This document shows, piece by piece, positions 2,640-16,948 of a stretch of 21,556 nucleotides of DNA. The DNA is taken from IMG/VR virus record IMGVR_UViG_3300032676_000852, positions 1 through 21,556 of that record. One strand, given 5' to 3'. A program made the position numbers and the translations under genes. The notes below the pieces were generated by a model. The model was not told the origin of the DNA, did no database searches, and saw only the letters and a program-made list of their open reading frames with translations. Numbering within the stretch: the stretch's first letter is position 1; each line of letters starts with the position of its first letter. This stretch comes from a virus.

Positions 2640-2829
2640 TTGTTTTATTCCTAATCTTATAAATTATCTGTTTATTAACCACTTCATAGTCAAATAAAGT
2701 ATCACAGGTGCTACATTTGTATGAGCCTGGATACTTTGCAAGGGAAAGGTCAGAGTGCTCAATCTTAAAGGCTTTGGTATGCCTTTTAATTCCGCAGTAC
2801 TTTCCCTCGCCCTGACACTCTTCACGCAT
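2563..2829 (-). CDS. Small zinc-ribbon-like protein
   Basis: An 88-aa protein from ATG 2829 (a TTG at 2838 is possible but less likely). Cysteine pairs in CQGEGKYC and YKCSTCDTLFDYE suggest a zinc ribbon or zinc knuckle. The tail is acidic and serine-rich (PEIESSEEQVSSTEAEEVG) and overlaps the first 77 nt of the ERF gene in another frame. The ATG overlaps the stop of the upstream gene by eight bases, indicating coupling. Unknown function. Confidence 0.6.
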   Translation of the reverse strand: MREECQGEGKYCGIKRHTKAFKIEHSDLSLAKYPGSYKCSTCDTLFDYEVVNKQIIYKIRNKTNEHIPEIESSEEQVSSTEAEEVGVK

Positions 2830-3022
2830 AGCGATCAAATTCTGTTGAGACTATTTTGCGCTGAGTTTCCCTGTCAAACTCCTGAAAGCTGAGAAAGTGT
2901 TTGTGTCCACAGCATTCGTCATTGGTTGTTTGTAATTCCAAACAGGTTTCACAATAATACAATCCATAGAATTCTTTTAAATTCTTAGCTATAAAATCTT
3001 CGTACTCTTGCTTTAATTTCAT
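2822..3022 (-). CDS. Small Cys/His-rich protein
   Basis: A 66-aa protein preceded by a strong AAAGGAG seven bases before ATG 3022. YYCETC (residues 22-27) and NDECCGHKH (34-42) make a likely single zinc site of CxxC...CCxHxH form. It precedes another cysteine-rich protein with an overlap, so the two may act together. No family recognised. Confidence 0.65.
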   Translation of the reverse strand: MKLKQEYEDFIAKNLKEFYGLYYCETCLELQTTNDECCGHKHFLSFQEFDRETQRKIVSTEFDRYA

Positions 3023-3094
3023 TTTGGATCTCCTTTAAATAGTTTACTAATCTTTTCTTAAATGACCAACTATATGGCCCATCTAGTTCAATTC

Positions 3095-3412
3095 TCATAC
3101 TGCCTTCATTACTCGTTGATTGCGGCCTGAAAACCCTGGGCGTTTCTGGCCTGTATCGACTACTAATCCTTTATGGATTAAAGGACGATATCGAGGTGTA
3201 ATTGATGATGATCTAACATGGGATAGGACAGACTCAACATCTTGGCTAATACAACCCTCTGGAAAGCTTTTAATAACGTCCAGAACGACTTGCTCCATGT
3301 TGCTAACGTCTACACTCTTAGCGGCCTCTTTTGATGTTTCAGGATCTGTGATTCGGGCAAAGCCCTGAGTAATCATATTATTCAGCTCTTCAAAAATTGA
3401 AAATGTTTTCAT
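3095..3412 (-). CDS. Winged-helix-like DNA-binding protein
   Basis: A 105-aa protein with a family-typical start, ARITDPETSKEAA (19-31), then a helix-rich middle (EQVVLDVIKSFPEGCISQDV) and a recognition-helix/wing pattern SSSITPRYRPLIHKGLVVDTG (68-88), ending in a basic SGRNQRVM. I recognise this layout from small phage proteins with a MarR-like winged-helix fold. AAGGGG lies five bases before the ATG. It may regulate the ERF operon or act in replication. Fold moderately sure, role unknown. Confidence 0.6.
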   Translation of the reverse strand: MKTFSIFEELNNMITQGFARITDPETSKEAAKSVDVSNMEQVVLDVIKSFPEGCISQDVESVLSHVRSSSITPRYRPLIHKGLVVDTGQKRPGFSGRNQRVMKAV

Positions 3413-3421
3413 ATTTACCCC

Positions 3422-3622
3422 TTATATGTAATATTCGTATGCCATCTCATGGAGAGCATCACCACATTCTTCGGTTAGTTTAATCAACTCATCATCAGTT
3501 AATTCTTCTTTGGTGTCTTCCCATATTGCATAACAAAAATATGCATCACAAAAGTCTGGGTAATCTGTTGGGTCAACACCATCTACTTCAACGTCTATAA
3601 CATTACGATTATTTAATTTCAT
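3422..3622 (-). CDS. Conserved acidic phage protein of unknown function
   Basis: A 66-aa acidic protein with the core VDGVDPTDYPDFCDAYF (residues 13-29) and LTDDELIKLTEE (41-52). I have seen the DYPDFCDA core in many small phage proteins of unknown function. CAGGAG lies seven bases before the ATG. The start overlaps the end of the upstream gene by 14 nt. Confidence 0.65.
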   Translation of the reverse strand: MKLNNRNVIDVEVDGVDPTDYPDFCDAYFCYAIWEDTKEELTDDELIKLTEECGDALHEMAYEYYI

Positions 3623-3773
3623 TTTGGGACTCCTGTTGTTGTCTAATCCAGATTATTAATTGGGCTACATCTACAAATTTGTGTTGGGTTGATTCTGAAA
3701 TCATGTCAAGTACAAATTGCTTGCCGTCTGCAAAACCCTGTTTATATGCATCTAATTCGTCTACTAATGCCAT
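3609..3773 (-). CDS. Hypothetical 54-aa protein
   Basis: I place the start at ATG 3773, one base after the stop of the upstream gene and with GGGGA just before it; the longer frame from 3839 would overlap that gene in full. The product begins MALVDELDAYKQGFADGKQF and looks like a short amphipathic helical protein. No family recognised. Confidence 0.55.
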   Translation of the reverse strand: MALVDELDAYKQGFADGKQFVLDMISESTQHKFVDVAQLIIWIRQQQESQNEIK

Positions 3774-3774
3774 G

Positions 3775-4029
3775 TTATTCCCCATCATATTCATTGCGTG
3801 ATGCCTGGATCTTGGCCCATACCAATTGCTCGATCTCATCTAAATTGTCATCATTAAGGACCGGTATTATGTCAATGCCGTTGTAAACAACTTCATCGAT
3901 TTCAATGTACTCATCAAAGTCAGGCTCATACTTCAAGCCTAAGCTATCTGTTGACCCTACTTGACCACCATCATATGTAAAGTAAACCTCTACATTTGCG
4001 CTGTTATAGAACACAGTTAACATACTCAT
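3775..4029 (-). CDS. Hypothetical acidic protein, first gene of the leftward ERF operon
   Basis: An 84-aa protein, strongly acidic (DFDEYIEIDEVVYNGIDI; NDDNLDEIEQ), beta-rich in its first half. A strong AAAGGAG lies six bases before ATG 4029. It is the promoter-proximal gene of the operon that runs through ERF, so it is likely made early and in quantity. Acidic early phage proteins sometimes mimic DNA or inhibit host factors, but nothing here proves that. Confidence 0.65.
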   Translation of the reverse strand: MSMLTVFYNSANVEVYFTYDGGQVGSTDSLGLKYEPDFDEYIEIDEVVYNGIDIIPVLNDDNLDEIEQLVWAKIQASRNEYDGE

Positions 4030-4074
4030 TTGGAACTCCTTTGTAGTTAATCAACCTGTTGTTGATGAACGTAG

Positions 4075-4187
4075 TTTACTATACTGGTTAACTAAATCAA
4101 TTGGTTGTTGTATTATTTTTGTACTTTAAACCCTAATAGGGTAAACCCTAATACTTATATATGGTTTACTGAATGTGGTATAGTAAA
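4075..4187. promoter_or_regulatory. Divergent promoter/operator region of the Cro-like switch
   Basis: The 10-mer TTTACTATAC at 4075-4084 recurs as its reverse complement at 4178-4187. Each copy contains a TATAGT -10 box, one pointing left toward the ERF operon (4083-4078) and one pointing right toward the Cro-like gene (4179-4184). The rightward box is preceded by TGG, giving an extended -10. The -35 regions are weak on both sides, suggesting activation or a relaxed promoter. TTTACT/AGTAAA (4165-4170 and 4182-4187) also forms an inverted repeat around the rightward -10. Confidence 0.55.
4128..4153. repeat. AAACCCTAATA direct repeat, candidate operator
   Basis: AAACCCTAATA occurs at 4128-4138 and 4143-4153, 15 bp apart, and CCCTAATAGGG (4131-4141) is a near palindrome. 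It sits between the two divergent promoters, where a repressor would bind. AAACCCT recurs three times in the non-coding region at 10846-11007. Confidence 0.5.
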
Positions 4188-4205
4188 TCTTTTAAGGAGC
4201 TAGGA

Positions 4206-4430
4206 ATGACAAAAAAAATAGATAACATAACTATTGAAGAGCTGGAGAAGAGAGCAGGATCTATGTACAAGGTAGCCAAGATCTTAGGGATTACAGTTGT
4301 AGCCGCTTACAAATGGAAGAGAAATAATAAAATTCCAGCTCCCAGGATTAAGTCTTTAATGCTCTTACATCCTGAGTGGTTTGAACCTATTGAAGAAAAA
4401 GTTGAAGAAAAAATAGAAATACCTGCATAA
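4206..4430 (+). CDS. Cro-like helix-turn-helix repressor
   Basis: I start at ATG 4206 because AAGGAG (4194-4199) lies six bases before it; the longer frame from GTG 4173 would begin upstream of the predicted transcription start. The 74-aa product has a helix-turn-helix at about residues 15-45 (MYKVAKILGITVVAAYKWKR, then NNKIPAPRIKSLM), the spacing and the W-K-R/PAPR pattern typical of Cro/YdaS-like proteins. The tail is an acidic and lysine-rich segment. Divergent orientation to the ERF operon, with repeats between, fits a switch protein that represses its own and the leftward promoter. Confidence 0.75.
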   Translation: MTKKIDNITIEELEKRAGSMYKVAKILGITVVAAYKWKRNNKIPAPRIKSLMLLHPEWFEPIEEKVEEKIEIPA

Positions 4431-4472
4431 TCGTATATACTGAAAGCGTTGCAGTGACTCGCAATGTTTTAG

Positions 4473-4553
4473 ACCACTTAACTAAGTATCTTGTCTTCAT
4501 GCAAATCAAGCATTGAGGAGAGTCACCAAGATACTTAACTTAAGTGGTTTTTT
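4473..4553 (+). terminator. Long hairpin with T tail after the Cro-like gene
   Basis: 4473-4493 pairs with 4527-4548 over 20 or 21 positions with one bulge, followed by six T (4548-4553), so this works as an intrinsic terminator. The 33-nt loop contains a small ATGC/GCAT hairpin. A 7-bp segment upstream (GTGACTC, 4454-4460) is complementary to GAGTCAC in the loop (4520-4526), which allows a pseudoknot or an alternative fold. Confidence 0.7.
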
Positions 4554-4824
4554 CATTGGGGAAGCGCAATACTGATCGGGGTTAGACAACCAGACCCTTG
4601 AGAATGTGAATGCGACAGACTCAGATAAACGTGCTGAATCAGGCAGGTATCTCCTAAAGACTAGATCTTTTCGGGGTAGTGAAAAACTGAACAAGGTAAC
4701 TTGTAAGCTAGATAAACGAGAGCATTAGCAAAGATGAAGTGAATAATCTTTGTAGTTATCAGATCTTCCTCTGGTTGTCAAATCGTGGGTTATTGTTTAA
4801 TTAGTAAACTTAAAGGAGTTAGAT
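4554..4824 (+). other. Gene-poor stretch before the early operon; possible non-coding RNA
   Basis: No convincing gene. A GTG at 4604 opens 46 codons to a TAG near 4728, but it has no ribosome binding site. G-rich patches and short inverted repeats (for example TTTTC/GAAAA around 4668-4686) suggest folded RNA. TTGTCA at 4775-4780 with an A/T-rich hexamer at about 4797-4802 is a weak candidate promoter for the following operon. Confidence 0.3.
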
Positions 4825-8550: not shown

Positions 8551-8798
8551 TGCCAAGACATAAAAGTTCATTAACCGATGGAGTATGTTTTTCTGTTCGT
8601 ATGTCGAAAGCCCAGCGTGAAATGTTTAACGACTTGGGCGGCATCGATTGGCTGAGAAAATACATTGATAGACAGTTATTACAAGAAGAAATCCAATTAA
8701 GATGTACCGAGACAAAGACCTCCTCAGACTCGCAGAGAATCAACCCTGTATCTTACAAGCCCTATCCAACTGCCTCGGAGAGTCAGAGACAACCGTAA
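8550..8798 (+). CDS. Small ribbon-helix-helix-like protein
   Basis: Starts at a TAATG overlap with the previous gene. Residues 13-44 (CFSVRMSKAQREMFNDLGG, then IDWLRKYIDRQL) fit a strand plus two helices as in ribbon-helix-helix DNA-binding proteins. The last 30 residues are S/T/Q/P-rich and overlap the next gene by 97 nt, so they may be an accidental extension. Confidence 0.5.
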   Translation: MPRHKSSLTDGVCFSVRMSKAQREMFNDLGGIDWLRKYIDRQLLQEEIQLRCTETKTSSDSQRINPVSYKPYPTASESQRQP

Positions 8799-9055
8799 GC
8801 GCACACAGTAACCAGCTTGTACATGGCAAAGGAAGGGGCCTAAAGAGTGAGGATTGCTATTCAATTTGGGCTTGTTCACGGTGCCATGCATGGCTTGATC
8901 AGGGAAAAGGGTCAAAAATAGACAAGAATGCACATTTTGATGAAAGATTTCCTTACCAAGTTTGGGAATGGAAAAAAATAGCAAATGACAAACTTCAGAA
9001 GCCTTGGAAAGTTGATGCGGCTCAAAAGGTACTTAATTATTTAGAGGTAGTGTAA
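8702..9055 (+). CDS. YbcO-like (DUF1364) putative nuclease
   Basis: A 117-aa protein. C16 and C24, then H35 (TTVSAHSNQLVHGKGRG), and CSRCHAWLDQG (58-68) reproduce the C...C...H...CxxCH layout of the YbcO/DUF1364 family of small HNH-like nucleases found in lambdoid and other phages. Zinc ligands are probably C16, C24, C58 and C61 with H35 and H62 catalytic. Role likely in processing recombination intermediates together with RusA. Last gene of the early operon, followed by a terminator. Confidence 0.78.
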   Translation: MYRDKDLLRLAENQPCILQALSNCLGESETTVSAHSNQLVHGKGRGLKSEDCYSIWACSRCHAWLDQGKGSKIDKNAHFDERFPYQVWEWKKIANDKLQKPWKVDAAQKVLNYLEVV

Positions 9056-9749: not shown

Positions 9750-10511
9750 TTAAACCTTCACTATTTGAATATTTTTTAACATACTATTAACCCGGTTTTT
9801 TTGTGCGCCATGCGCCGGGAAGCCGATAATAACGGCCCTATCTACTATTTGACACAATTGACAATTAGAACAATTAACATTGTCCTTATAAGTGGCCGGG
9901 CAAGTTATAACAGTATTACCCGCGGGTGTAATCTCTTTTTTAGGCGCATCAATTGATTGAAGAGTAACTACAGGCCCGGCTTTAAGTTCTTTTAATCTAT
10001 CCGCATCCGCATAATTATTGGCGCTTAGGTTAACTGTAAACCCGCATTTATTGGCTTGACGTATCCAATGAATATTTGATGCTAATTTGACCTTATGAGT
10101 ATAAGTAAACCCTCTTTTAAATAAATTGGCTTGAACTAATTCACCTAGTAAAACCGGATCAATGGCCTCATTCTCGCCCGGTAGATCACCGGCGATATCA
10201 TGCCGCCATAATTGTGCATCTGGTAATGATTTAATATTATTAATTAATTCGGGCCATGTAATGCCCCTCTCGCCATTGCTTACTTTACTCCAGTTCCAGC
10301 CTACAGGCCCCAAATCGGCATAACAGCCGTTTTTATTTTTTAATGGGCAACTATCAGGACATGATCTTTTGTCGCTTACTGTGCAGGGTATTGGCCCTAT
10401 TTTCGAATTGGCACTAACCCTAGTAAACTGATAATGATAATTAAACGCTAACCCTCTTGATGCATACGTATCTACTATCATCTCGCCAATTGGCGTTAAA
10501 ACTGTATTCAT
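9750..10511 (-). CDS. Cysteine-rich conserved phage protein of unknown function (DUF7227-like)
   Basis: A 253-aa protein. I recognise the family layout: SANSKIGPIP (33-42), CPDSCPLKNKNGCYA (51-65), GERGITWPEL (80-89), QLWRHDIAGDLPGE (100-113), FTYTHK (135-140), FTVNLSANN (158-166), GPVVTLQ (179-185), then C204 and NCSNCQLCQ (213-221) and GFPAHG (230-235). I think it is the phage family labelled DUF7227, but cannot check. Nine cysteines in clusters (43, 51, 55, 63; 204, 214, 217, 220) suggest one or two metal or iron-sulfur sites. Conserved R/H/D residues (RHD at 103-105) and the THK could form an active site. It sits alone among microproteins. Enzyme activity is likely but unknown. Confidence 0.7.
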   Translation of the reverse strand: MNTVLTPIGEMIVDTYASRGLAFNYHYQFTRVSANSKIGPIPCTVSDKRSCPDSCPLKNKNGCYADLGPVGWNWSKVSNGERGITWPELINNIKSLPDAQLWRHDIAGDLPGENEAIDPVLLGELVQANLFKRGFTYTHKVKLASNIHWIRQANKCGFTVNLSANNYADADRLKELKAGPVVTLQSIDAPKKEITPAGNTVITCPATYKDNVNCSNCQLCQIVDRAVIIGFPAHGAQKNRVNSMLKNIQIVKV

Positions 10512-14338: not shown

Positions 14339-14520
14339 CCGAAAAATACGATCCTGATGATTTCAACAATCGTTTAGGAAATCAAGCGGAGTTTTGTGCC
14401 CGTAAAATCTTTGAGTTTTTAAAGAAAGAAATCGGCACAATGACTGCGCTTGAGATCCATTACCTTGCTATGTCAGCAGAAATATTCCTAGATATTAGGG
14501 ATAAGTATGGCAAAAAGTGA
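14335..14520 (+). CDS. Small helical protein immediately before TerL
   Basis: GTG start at 14335 overlapping the previous stop. The 61-aa product (DDFNNRLGNQAEFCARKIFE, then LEIHYLAMSAEIFLDIRDKYG) is all-helical. It overlaps TerL by 14 nt. A small terminase-associated role is possible, but nothing in the sequence proves it. Confidence 0.6.
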   Translation: MTEKYDPDDFNNRLGNQAEFCARKIFEFLKKEIGTMTALEIHYLAMSAEIFLDIRDKYGKK

Positions 14521-16948
14521 AGCCAGTAATTATGTCCTACCGCTATACAAAACCAGGGCTATAAAGCATCTGGTTAACTTGGCGGGTGGTAAAAAGAAAC
14601 TTAAAGAGTTAACTAAAGAGCAGATTAATGCTATGCGTATCGCTACAGACAAAGTAGCAGAAGATATGCAGTACAACCAAATGAAGTGGTTTAAACCATT
14701 TTCATATCAACAGAAGTTTTTTGATTTAGGTAAAAACTTTTCCCGTAGAGGGATGATTGCCGCCAACAGAGCTGGTAAATGCTGTACTAAAGATACAGTA
14801 TTAGATTTGCCTGGTGGTAAAAAAATTACATATGGCGAGATGTATGAGCGTGGATTGCCATTTGATGTTTATTCTTGGGATGGGTCTAAAGTAGTTATTA
14901 AAACTGCAATAGAACCCATTAAAAAGCCACAAGAACCTTGCGTTAGGTTGTGGTTATCTGACGGTAGTTGGATAGAGCCTGCTTTACGTCATCTCGTTTT
15001 GGATTCCAAGGGCGATTACGTCTTTTGCTCCAGCCTTCTAGCATCGATCCATAACCTTCTGGAGTCCAATTCGGAACACAACCAGTCAATTCGTGTTTCA
15101 GGTGTTCAGCGTTTGAAGAAAAAACTTCAAGGTTTTCTGGTCGGTTGTCTGTCCGTATTCCGTTCCTGTGATGCACAACTTCTGAAGGCAACAAATAGCG
15201 TTTCAAGTTTTCTTCAACGACAAGGCGGTGTTCGGCTACTGTCTTCTTTTTCGTTGCAAACGGGTGATCTGGATAATAAATATACCAATATCCGCCAACT
15301 AACCTACGACCCCCTTTCCAACCAGTATGCTTATCGCCCGATCTTGGCCCCGTTCTTTGAGTTTTTAGACCGAGTGAATAGCAACGTCTTTGAATGGTTG
15401 CACGGTCGCATCCAAGCAATTCAGCGATTTGCACTTGCGTCAATTGTTCAACTTCAACAAGATGCTTCAAACGAGCCTCATCAAGTTCAATCTTCTTCAT
15501 TGTTTAATCCTTTTGTTAATGCTACAAATCAGATTATAGCCTATGAACCGATTGGATTCCATGATGTGTATGACTTTAGTGTTCCTGAAACTGAAAACTA
15601 CATAAGTTGCGGTATCGTGCATCACAACACAATTGCATCAACCTATGAAACAGCATTTCATTTAACAGGCAAATACCCTCCGCATTGGAAAGGTAAGATT
15701 TATGACTCGCCAATTATTGCTATGTGCGCTGGTGAATCCTGGGAACAAGTTGCAAAAACACTACAAAGTAAACTCTTAGGTTGCGATGACATTAAGCAAA
15801 GTTATCGTTTAGGTTCTGGTGCTATACCCAGAGATGCAATTGATGCTAAATCAATTCGTGCAGACGGTCAAAACGTGCTTGCTATGGAGGTTTGGCACGT
15901 TACGGGTGGTAAATCAAAGCTTTACTTTTCAAACTATACACAGCAAGTTAGGCATTTACAAGGATTTGAACTTGATTTGGTTGTACTTGATGAGCAACCG
16001 CCAGACGAAACCTTTTCCGAATTGGTAGTTAGAACGGCATCAAGGAATGGGCAAGTTATATGTTCATTTACTCCGCTCAAGGGTATGTCTGGCCTTGTTA
16101 GAAAGTTCTGGGATCAAATAGATGGATATGCCCACGTTCGGGTTACTTGGGATGATATTCCCTTTGTTAATGAATGGGGAGAGCCGTTCTTTAGCTTAGA
16201 GGAGCGAGAACAATTAGCCAGGGACTTTATGCCTTGGGAGCGTGATTGCCGTATGAATGGTATACCGCTAATGGGTAAGGGAGTTGTATTCCCATTATTA
16301 GAATGGCCTATATATGCTCAAGATGAGTATGATTTAAGAAATAATGACAAGCTGGAAAGGTTAATTAGTTTTGACTTAGGAATAAAAAATGACCCAACCG
16401 TTATCTCGTTCTTTTTTAGAGATGCAATTAATGAAATTATTTATCTTCACAGGCAAATCACAATCCCATCAGGGGAAACGCCTGACGAATATGTTCACTA
16501 TTTACTTGATAAGGAATCCAAAGGGGTCCCAATTGCTCTACCGCATGATGCGGCAACGGCAGGCAGATATACGCTTACAGAGCAAAGTGTCAGGGAGGTG
16601 TTTGAGGATTCATACGGCCTTAACTGCATATCTGGCGCAATCCTCAATCCTGCGAATGATCAGGGAAAGGTAACTAACCACAAAGCCTATGGAATCAATA
16701 TAATGAGGCTTATGATGGAGCGCCAAACGCTTTTGATAAACGAAAGTTGTAAAGCATTCTTAGATGAAGCCAGGAATTACGCTATTGACGAAATGGGCCG
16801 GTTTAATGATCCAGACGATCATATAGATTCAGCAAGAATTGGAGTATTAGCATTGATTCAAGGGCATGGAGAATCGGTAGTAAGCAGAGCTAATACATTC
16901 ATCAACCGCAGGATTCCTGTAGTTGAAGGCAAATTGCAAAGAATCTAA
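14507..16948 (+). CDS. terL: Terminase large subunit interrupted by an intein
   Basis: An 813-codon frame that splices, in prediction, to a 530-aa terminase. Packaging ATPase: FSYQQKFFD (65-73, adenine motif), Walker A AANRAGK (85-91) completed by T375 after splicing, Walker B LVVLDE (491-496) and coupling motif CSFTPLKG (519-526). Nuclease: SFDLGIKNDPT (621-631), PHDAATAG (679-686) and DDHIDSARIG (770-779), whose aspartates D623, D681 and D771/D774 are the expected metal-binding acids. TerL cuts concatemers and drives DNA into the prohead through the portal, encoded next. Without protein splicing the P-loop is broken between K91 and T375, so packaging should depend on the intein. Confidence 0.93.
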   Translation: MAKSEASNYVLPLYKTRAIKHLVNLAGGKKKLKELTKEQINAMRIATDKVAEDMQYNQMKWFKPFSYQQKFFDLGKNFSRRGMIAANRAGKCCTKDTVLDLPGGKKITYGEMYERGLPFDVYSWDGSKVVIKTAIEPIKKPQEPCVRLWLSDGSWIEPALRHLVLDSKGDYVFCSSLLASIHNLLESNSEHNQSIRVSGVQRLKKKLQGFLVGCLSVFRSCDAQLLKATNSVSSFLQRQGGVRLLSSFSLQTGDLDNKYTNIRQLTYDPLSNQYAYRPILAPFFEFLDRVNSNVFEWLHGRIQAIQRFALASIVQLQQDASNEPHQVQSSSLFNPFVNATNQIIAYEPIGFHDVYDFSVPETENYISCGIVHHNTIASTYETAFHLTGKYPPHWKGKIYDSPIIAMCAGESWEQVAKTLQSKLLGCDDIKQSYRLGSGAIPRDAIDAKSIRADGQNVLAMEVWHVTGGKSKLYFSNYTQQVRHLQGFELDLVVLDEQPPDETFSELVVRTASRNGQVICSFTPLKGMSGLVRKFWDQIDGYAHVRVTWDDIPFVNEWGEPFFSLEEREQLARDFMPWERDCRMNGIPLMGKGVVFPLLEWPIYAQDEYDLRNNDKLERLISFDLGIKNDPTVISFFFRDAINEIIYLHRQITIPSGETPDEYVHYLLDKESKGVPIALPHDAATAGRYTLTEQSVREVFEDSYGLNCISGAILNPANDQGKVTNHKAYGINIMRLMMERQTLLINESCKAFLDEARNYAIDEMGRFNDPDDHIDSARIGVLALIQGHGESVVSRANTFINRRIPVVEGKLQRI
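14943..15500 (-). CDS. HNH homing endonuclease encoded antisense within the intein
   Basis: A 185-aa protein from ATG 15500, with AAAAGGA ending seven bases before it. N-terminal helix-turn-helix at about 13-45 (LTQVQIAELLGCDRATIQRR at 20-39). Then GGYWYIYYPDHPFATKKK (69-86), AEHRLVVEENLKRYL (89-103), and the HNH core SEVVHHRNGIRTDNRPENLE (106-125) to AEH (131-133). H110, H111, N119/N123 and H133 are the likely catalytic and metal residues. This is the common free-standing phage HNH endonuclease family. It lies entirely within the intein on the opposite strand; its last 27 codons overprint block B. Expected role: cutting intein-less TerL genes to spread the intein. GC is about 45-48% at 15001-15180 against 37-40% in flanking TerL, suggesting separate origin. 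Confidence 0.93.
   Translation of the reverse strand: MKKIELDEARLKHLVEVEQLTQVQIAELLGCDRATIQRRCYSLGLKTQRTGPRSGDKHTGWKGGRRLVGGYWYIYYPDHPFATKKKTVAEHRLVVEENLKRYLLPSEVVHHRNGIRTDNRPENLEVFSSNAEHLKHELTGCVPNWTPEGYGSMLEGWSKRRNRPWNPKRDDVKQALSNYRQITTT
15507..15538 (-). promoter_or_regulatory. Promoter -10 and ribosome binding site of the antisense HNH gene
   Basis: On the minus strand TATAAT (15538-15533) is a perfect -10 box; a start about seven bases on would leave a leader of about 25 nt carrying AAAAGGA (15514-15508). The -35 is poor (TGGAAT, 17 bp upstream). These signals sit in the codons for the linker and the start of the C-terminal Hint part. Confidence 0.5.

Follow-up and report, generated by a model that had tools for sequence, protein, structure and literature searches.

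To our knowledge, the endonuclease of every mobile intein described so far is either fused in frame or encoded by a gene lying between the two parts of a split intein. The in-frame state is exemplified by the dCTP deaminase intein of cyanophage CL131 with its HNH_3 endonuclease domain (PMC6293099), and a nested HEN insertion site has been described for such conventional inteins (PMC6801210). The element reported here, found in the large terminase (TerL) gene of a virus, resembles these in several respects: a Hint domain, endonuclease coding between the two halves of this domain, insertion into a conserved host motif and a nuclease of the HNH_3 type. In those inteins, however, the endonuclease belongs to the intein protein itself; here it has a gene of its own on the complementary strand, complete with a start and promoter-like signals, and the middle of the intein is predicted to be disordered. 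Dassa et al. 2009 reportedly described split inteins accompanied by free-standing endonuclease genes ('fractured genes'). As in those, intein and endonuclease are here separate genes in one locus; unlike those, the host gene and the intein are continuous, and only one variant locus (L155, see below) is split.

Outside inteins, the closest parallel is I-DsqI, which is encoded antisense in the Didymium L2066 group I intron, is expressed and cuts the intron-less allele (PMC9548176). Both are self-splicing elements with an antisense endonuclease gene, splicing and cleavage being predicted in our case. The I-DsqI system, however, involves RNA splicing in rDNA and a His-Cys enzyme, and the strand opposite its endonuclease need not encode protein, whereas that of the intein must stay open. 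The intron endonucleases of phage T4 in td, nrdB and nrdD have promoters of their own (PMC2988022) and thereby share with our case the uncoupling of expression from the host gene, predicted here from sequence signals; they are, however, sense-strand genes in RNA introns, unlike the antisense HNH gene in an intein. The first-pass annotation of this DNA had held that antisense endonuclease genes are known for some group I introns and are not known for inteins. This was borne out in the open full-text literature, where PMC9548176 documents the intron case and an antisense endonuclease gene in an intein was not found; with the search covering open-access papers, the novelty is provisional.

The terminase intein and its antisense HNH gene

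The window, i.e., the whole stretch of viral DNA analysed (21,556 nucleotides), contains a terL precursor ORF of 813 aa (14507-16948, + strand) that matches PHROG 31467 and PHROG 5653 and comprises an N-extein, an intein and a C-extein. It is one continuous ORF; the host gene is not broken into two as in a split-intein locus. The intein, with 283 aa (14780-15628, +), interrupts the Walker A motif at AANRAGK|T, and runs from Cys1 to a terminal HHN followed by a +1 Thr. It was delineated by conserved residues, profile matches and the Hint fold: once it is removed, the spliced TerL aligns without gaps to intein-less TerLs of 530 aa, the removal of the insert thus restoring the conserved host protein. 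Among 49 inteins C1, H71, D265 and N283 are invariant and H282 is nearly so, with T as the +1 residue, and the C-terminal splicing motif is present in the host TerL ORF. Among PDB entries, the intein family profile matches the mini-inteins of DnaB, DnaE and RecA (to 2.8e-24), these matches covering only intein residues about 1-103 and 250-284. In an AF2 model, pLDDT exceeds 85 for residues 1-90 and 80 from about residue 241 to the end, and is about 30 at residues 96-180, the part opposite the HNH core. Foldseek with this model recovered NpuDnaE (2.9e-6, TMt 0.85) along with other inteins, which points to a Hint fold. Profile searches with the sense (intein) frame gave no nuclease family match, i.e., no endonuclease was detected in frame. 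Judged by sequence and model, the insert in TerL is an intein with a Hint domain, which would splice itself from the precursor.

The complementary strand holds an HTH-HNH endonuclease gene of 185 codons plus stop, encoding 185 aa (14943-15500, −). The claim from which this study started, that a complete HNH gene lies antisense inside the intein, thus holds: the ORF falls wholly within 14780-15628 and matches Pfam HNH_3 (1.1e-7) and PHROG HNH families down to 2.8e-25 (phrog_20891). The residues H111, N119, N123 and H133 are invariant in 53 HNH relatives, and the AF2 model (pLDDT 85) predicts a helix-turn-helix at the N-terminus (8-43), an HNH region at 87-138 and, as its tail, a disordered stretch, with pLDDT of 85-97 in the catalytic core. 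A fold search with this model returned no strong whole-length match, and I-HmuI is only a weak sequence match (0.018). Given the coordinate map and the pLDDT of both models, the DNA-binding and catalytic core (15066-15470) faces the predicted disordered intein linker (intein residues ~96-230), and the HNH tail (14943-15065) faces the N-terminal splicing domain with block B, the codon of whose His71 (14990-14992) is opposite HNH residues about 170-171; it is the stretch homologous to this tail that shows two-frame constraint in the Ymer-type loci (see below).

Several signals for expression of the HNH gene can be read on its strand: a Shine-Dalgarno-like AAAAGGA (15508-15514, −) 7 nt before the ATG; a −10-like TATAAT (15533-15538, −) 38 nt before the ATG; and, with a 17-nt spacer to the latter, a weak −35 TGGAAT (15556-15561, −) that matches 3 of 6 positions. 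With its −35 at 3 of 6, this candidate was not listed by a strict promoter scan of the window, and a generic scan of the window found sites in numbers no higher than in shuffles. The informative promoter test is the class-wide one only, in which synonymous recoding of the intein served as the null along with four control strand/position sets. Here the sigma-70-like promoter score on the HNH strand, taken over the 140 nt that precede the HNH start, was 8.89 against 8.18 of 12 (p=6e-14, a value inflated by related loci), and matches of at least 10 of 12 occurred in 27% of 123 loci against 0-3% in the four control sets. The −10 is placed 30-45 nt before the HNH ATG in 57 of 79 cases, the modal position of the class, and the sequence in Pseudoalteromonas phage PHS3 reads TTGACA-17-GATAAT. 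Likewise, Shine-Dalgarno sites precede 65% of first ATGs (82/127) as against 11% of internal in-frame ATGs (42/385; p=3e-31, again inflated by related loci). A terminator-like hairpin with a T-run lies directly after the HNH stop (14928-14942, −); terminators at this place show no enrichment across the class. Homology, catalytic residues, selection (see below) and the translation and promoter signals together mark the HNH frame as a real gene, presumably transcribed.

Register, stop avoidance and selection on the two strands

Position 1 of each HNH codon lies opposite position 1 of an intein codon; recomputation of the register thereby agrees with the first-pass annotation. In this register every single-base change is non-silent in at least one of the two frames (no SS sites). 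Across the HNH gene the intein frame has 0 stops, and the other two sense frames have 7 and 12. The expectation for the intein frame is 8.5 stops under codon shuffling, 7.3 under synonymous shuffling and 8.6 under the codon usage of the window, and zero stops never arose in 20,000 draws of each of these three nulls. This range sits well with the earlier estimate of about eight chance stops against none present; of the hand counts behind that estimate, the 31 HNH codons ending in TT, CT or TC were found again, and the codons starting with A number 51 rather than 50. The same avoidance extends to 165 of 181 HNH loci: the facing frame of each has 0 stops, where 1112 would be expected over all of them together, a total that is not to be read as a probability because the loci are related and some repeat. 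In the other 16, mostly free-standing, stops in the facing frame are near expectation.

Overlap-aware substitution counts over 20 disjoint pairs gave dN/dS of 0.22 (0.20-0.25) for the HNH frame and 0.64 (0.56-0.73) for the intein frame; with the counts restricted to the clade of the window, the ratio for the intein is 0.80 (0.54-1.22), indistinguishable from 1. In the Ymer type, a second HNH subfamily, the HNH stop usually falls about 14 codons after Cys1, and the C-terminal domain of the HNH protein consequently faces the N-terminal splicing domain of the intein. Opposite this domain both frames are constrained (HNH 0.44, intein 0.40); in the remaining overlap the HNH frame stays constrained (0.28-0.29) and the intein frame evolves neutrally (0.96-0.98). 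The overlap is thus in part true dual coding and in part a linker that is only kept open. The double constraint on the HNH gene that had been proposed accordingly stands in part: stops are avoided, and there is constraint on both frames in the stretch of the HNH tail opposite the splicing domain, but across from the HNH core the intein frame is about neutral. Put in terms of the codon-level comparison suggested at the outset, the HNH frame is constrained throughout and the intein frame unevenly so among the Ymer-type pairs. This one gene, whose overlap passes from constraint on both frames to neutral but open, provides a clean natural example of two-strand coding in antisense that carries its own control.

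A class of inteins with antisense endonuclease genes

About 160 loci, with TerL-type and other hosts, share this layout in a single register. Scanning viral contigs with an HNH alignment returned 338 relatives; the analysis went on with the best 80. In 76 of these best 80 of 338 the HNH gene lies antisense to a long open frame, in the register described above, and intein motifs are present in those 76 loci wherever the contig reaches far enough. The four exceptions among the best 80 are a free gene (L141), a split locus (L155), a locus open by chance without an intein (L164) and one at a contig end (L154). The HNH relative in L164 (3890-4435), with no facing-frame stops and no intein motifs, is perhaps an escaped copy. 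The Ymer-type subfamily yielded 241 relatives, and the arrangement is seen in all of the best 80 of these 241. In 160 of 167 loci the intein boundaries can be placed such that splicing restores the P-loop motif, as x|SGK[ST] or GK|[ST]; the N-termini were assigned by regex, which probably misplaces a few boundaries (e.g. L229, L243, L163). The hosts are mostly varied TerLs, and further include helicases, a clamp loader and an SbcC-like ATPase.

Among named phages, the arrangement was read in the cultured Pectobacterium phages Ymer, Sabo, Koroua and Taid and in Dickeya phage Setonix; Abuela, Amona and Pappous have HNH matches at 94-100% identity, and PHS3, likewise cultured, also carries it. 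The TerL of Escherichia phage KW1E_UTAR has the unoccupied counterpart of the Ymer insertion site, HPAFVAGFG|TGKSQT. In the record of Ymer (OP748252) the TerL precursor, CDS0009, is annotated as 'hypothetical protein', the HNH gene is unannotated and the intein missed; in that of PHS3 (KX912252, 17336-18511) TerL is annotated only from inside the precursor onward, without its N-terminal part, and the intein is likewise missed. Bacterial contigs from Polaromonas sp. CG9_12 (L168) and from Acidobacteria MAGs (L166/L167) have the same arrangement in helicase-like genes.

In the HNH tree (139 rows) the intein-linked rows cluster, the label needing 4-5 changes against about 25 when shuffled. A single origin with later escapes is possible for the intein-linked HNHs, the tree support being moderate. 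The comparison across loci identifies a conserved class rather than a chance ORF. We see in these inteins a third solution for the placement of an intein endonuclease, apparently old, common in phages and hidden by genome annotation.

Related loci depart from this layout in different ways. In L155 an AAA-type ATPase gene is split at the intein into two ORFs, with intein halves at 4146-4805 (−) and 2799-3623 (−); the HNH gene (3677-4336, +) lies antisense between and over these halves, and the C-half has its own ATG preceded by AAAGAGGT. From its sequence, L155 is a split variant of the class. L328 (1501-2286) has a TerL intein at the GK site without an antisense HNH gene and with stops in all antisense frames, possibly reflecting HNH loss or a pre-insertion state. 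The loci L329-L332 are other phage inteins, L329 with an HNH-like sequence in the sense frame and L331 a mini-intein.

Mobility, proposed mechanism and alternatives

The intein of the window differs from that of L008 at 1.5% of bases, as against 17.6% for the exteins; the L008 extein, in turn, differs by 0.3% from that of the intein-less L016, and comparison of L008 with L017 reveals an exact 849-bp insertion. In the TerL tree the six TerLs with an intein are dispersed among 62 without one (530 aa). TerL loci without the intein lack the HNH gene too, even where TerL is only 0.3% different. Conversely, in loci fetched by the intein, not the HNH, the latter is intact in all 35 full-length Ymer-type cases and in 5 of 6 type-1 cases, the opposite of the pattern that the first-pass annotation had named as counting against its reading, namely a broken HNH frame beside an intact intein in all homologues. 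No long co-conversion tract was detected flanking the insertion, the flanks beyond about 24 nt being no more alike than the rest. These comparisons indicate that the element occupies a precise site and moves horizontally.

We consider it highly probable that this is a mobile intein whose homing endonuclease is a separate, antisense and independently expressed gene within the linker DNA. Its anatomy, the intact and selected HNH gene with translation and promoter signals, the precise insertion and the horizontal movement are read from the DNA; splicing, transcription, cleavage and homing by the HNH enzyme would proceed as follows. TerL would be made as a precursor, from which the Hint domain (residues 1-95 and 240-283) would excise the intein, joining AANRAGK to T and restoring Walker A. 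The antisense promoter and ribosome site in the DNA of the C-terminal part of the intein would yield the HTH-HNH protein independently of TerL. P-loop genes lacking the intein would be cut by this protein at the insertion site or close to it, and repair by recombination would copy the whole 849-bp element, so that both genes would move together.

Some phage HNH proteins encoded beside terminase act in DNA packaging, and most hosts of the element are large terminases; the HNH protein might on this account serve packaging with TerL, its place in an intein being incidental. We regard this as very unlikely, since the HNH is missing from the intein-less TerL loci, even those 0.3% different, and the same family is found in helicases, a clamp loader and an SbcC-like ATPase. 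Somewhat better placed, though still improbable, is the proposal that the HNH is a passenger or a recently inserted free gene, with the intein moving by other means (general recombination or a co-infecting endonuclease): free-standing HNH relatives exist, as does a TerL intein without the HNH (L328), and cleavage by the HNH is itself a predicted step. Yet the union appears old and conserved, in the same register in two subfamilies and with few changes on the tree; the HNH is under strong purifying selection and rarely lost; and it is the sole endonuclease gene in the element.

Antisense ORFs do arise by chance and some antisense registers are permissive, which would make the HNH frame a chance or codon-bias mirror ORF and not a gene; HNH-family homology, a dN/dS of 0.22, the Shine-Dalgarno and promoter signals and a folded model with conserved catalytic residues leave this hardly any credence. 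Just as little attaches to the reading of the insert as a group I intron instead of an intein: such introns are known to harbour homing endonuclease genes in antisense (PMC9548176), but no Rfam match was obtained up to E=1 in 14500-16000, and the insert has an open frame, intein motifs and a Hint fold, on which grounds we rejected it.

Returning to the mobile intein with an antisense endonuclease gene, we think it likely, with less assurance than for the locus itself, that the loci represent an ancient phage-wide class of such inteins, with one fixed register, a conserved promoter inside the intein and a timing of homing that does not depend on the late host gene. A single stretch of DNA in the larger subfamily would encode both the splicing domain (with block B) and the conserved C-terminal domain of the endonuclease, and occasional frame breaks would be rescued by splitting of the intein (L155), a link to split inteins. 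Such inteins make testable how selfish elements time an endonuclease against an essential late gene, and offer a route from continuous to split inteins.

Elsewhere in the window, a second, unrelated HNH protein (phrog_131) is encoded at 8702-9055, and a conserved phage protein of unknown function (phrog_2554, 2.5e-40) at 9750-10511 (−).
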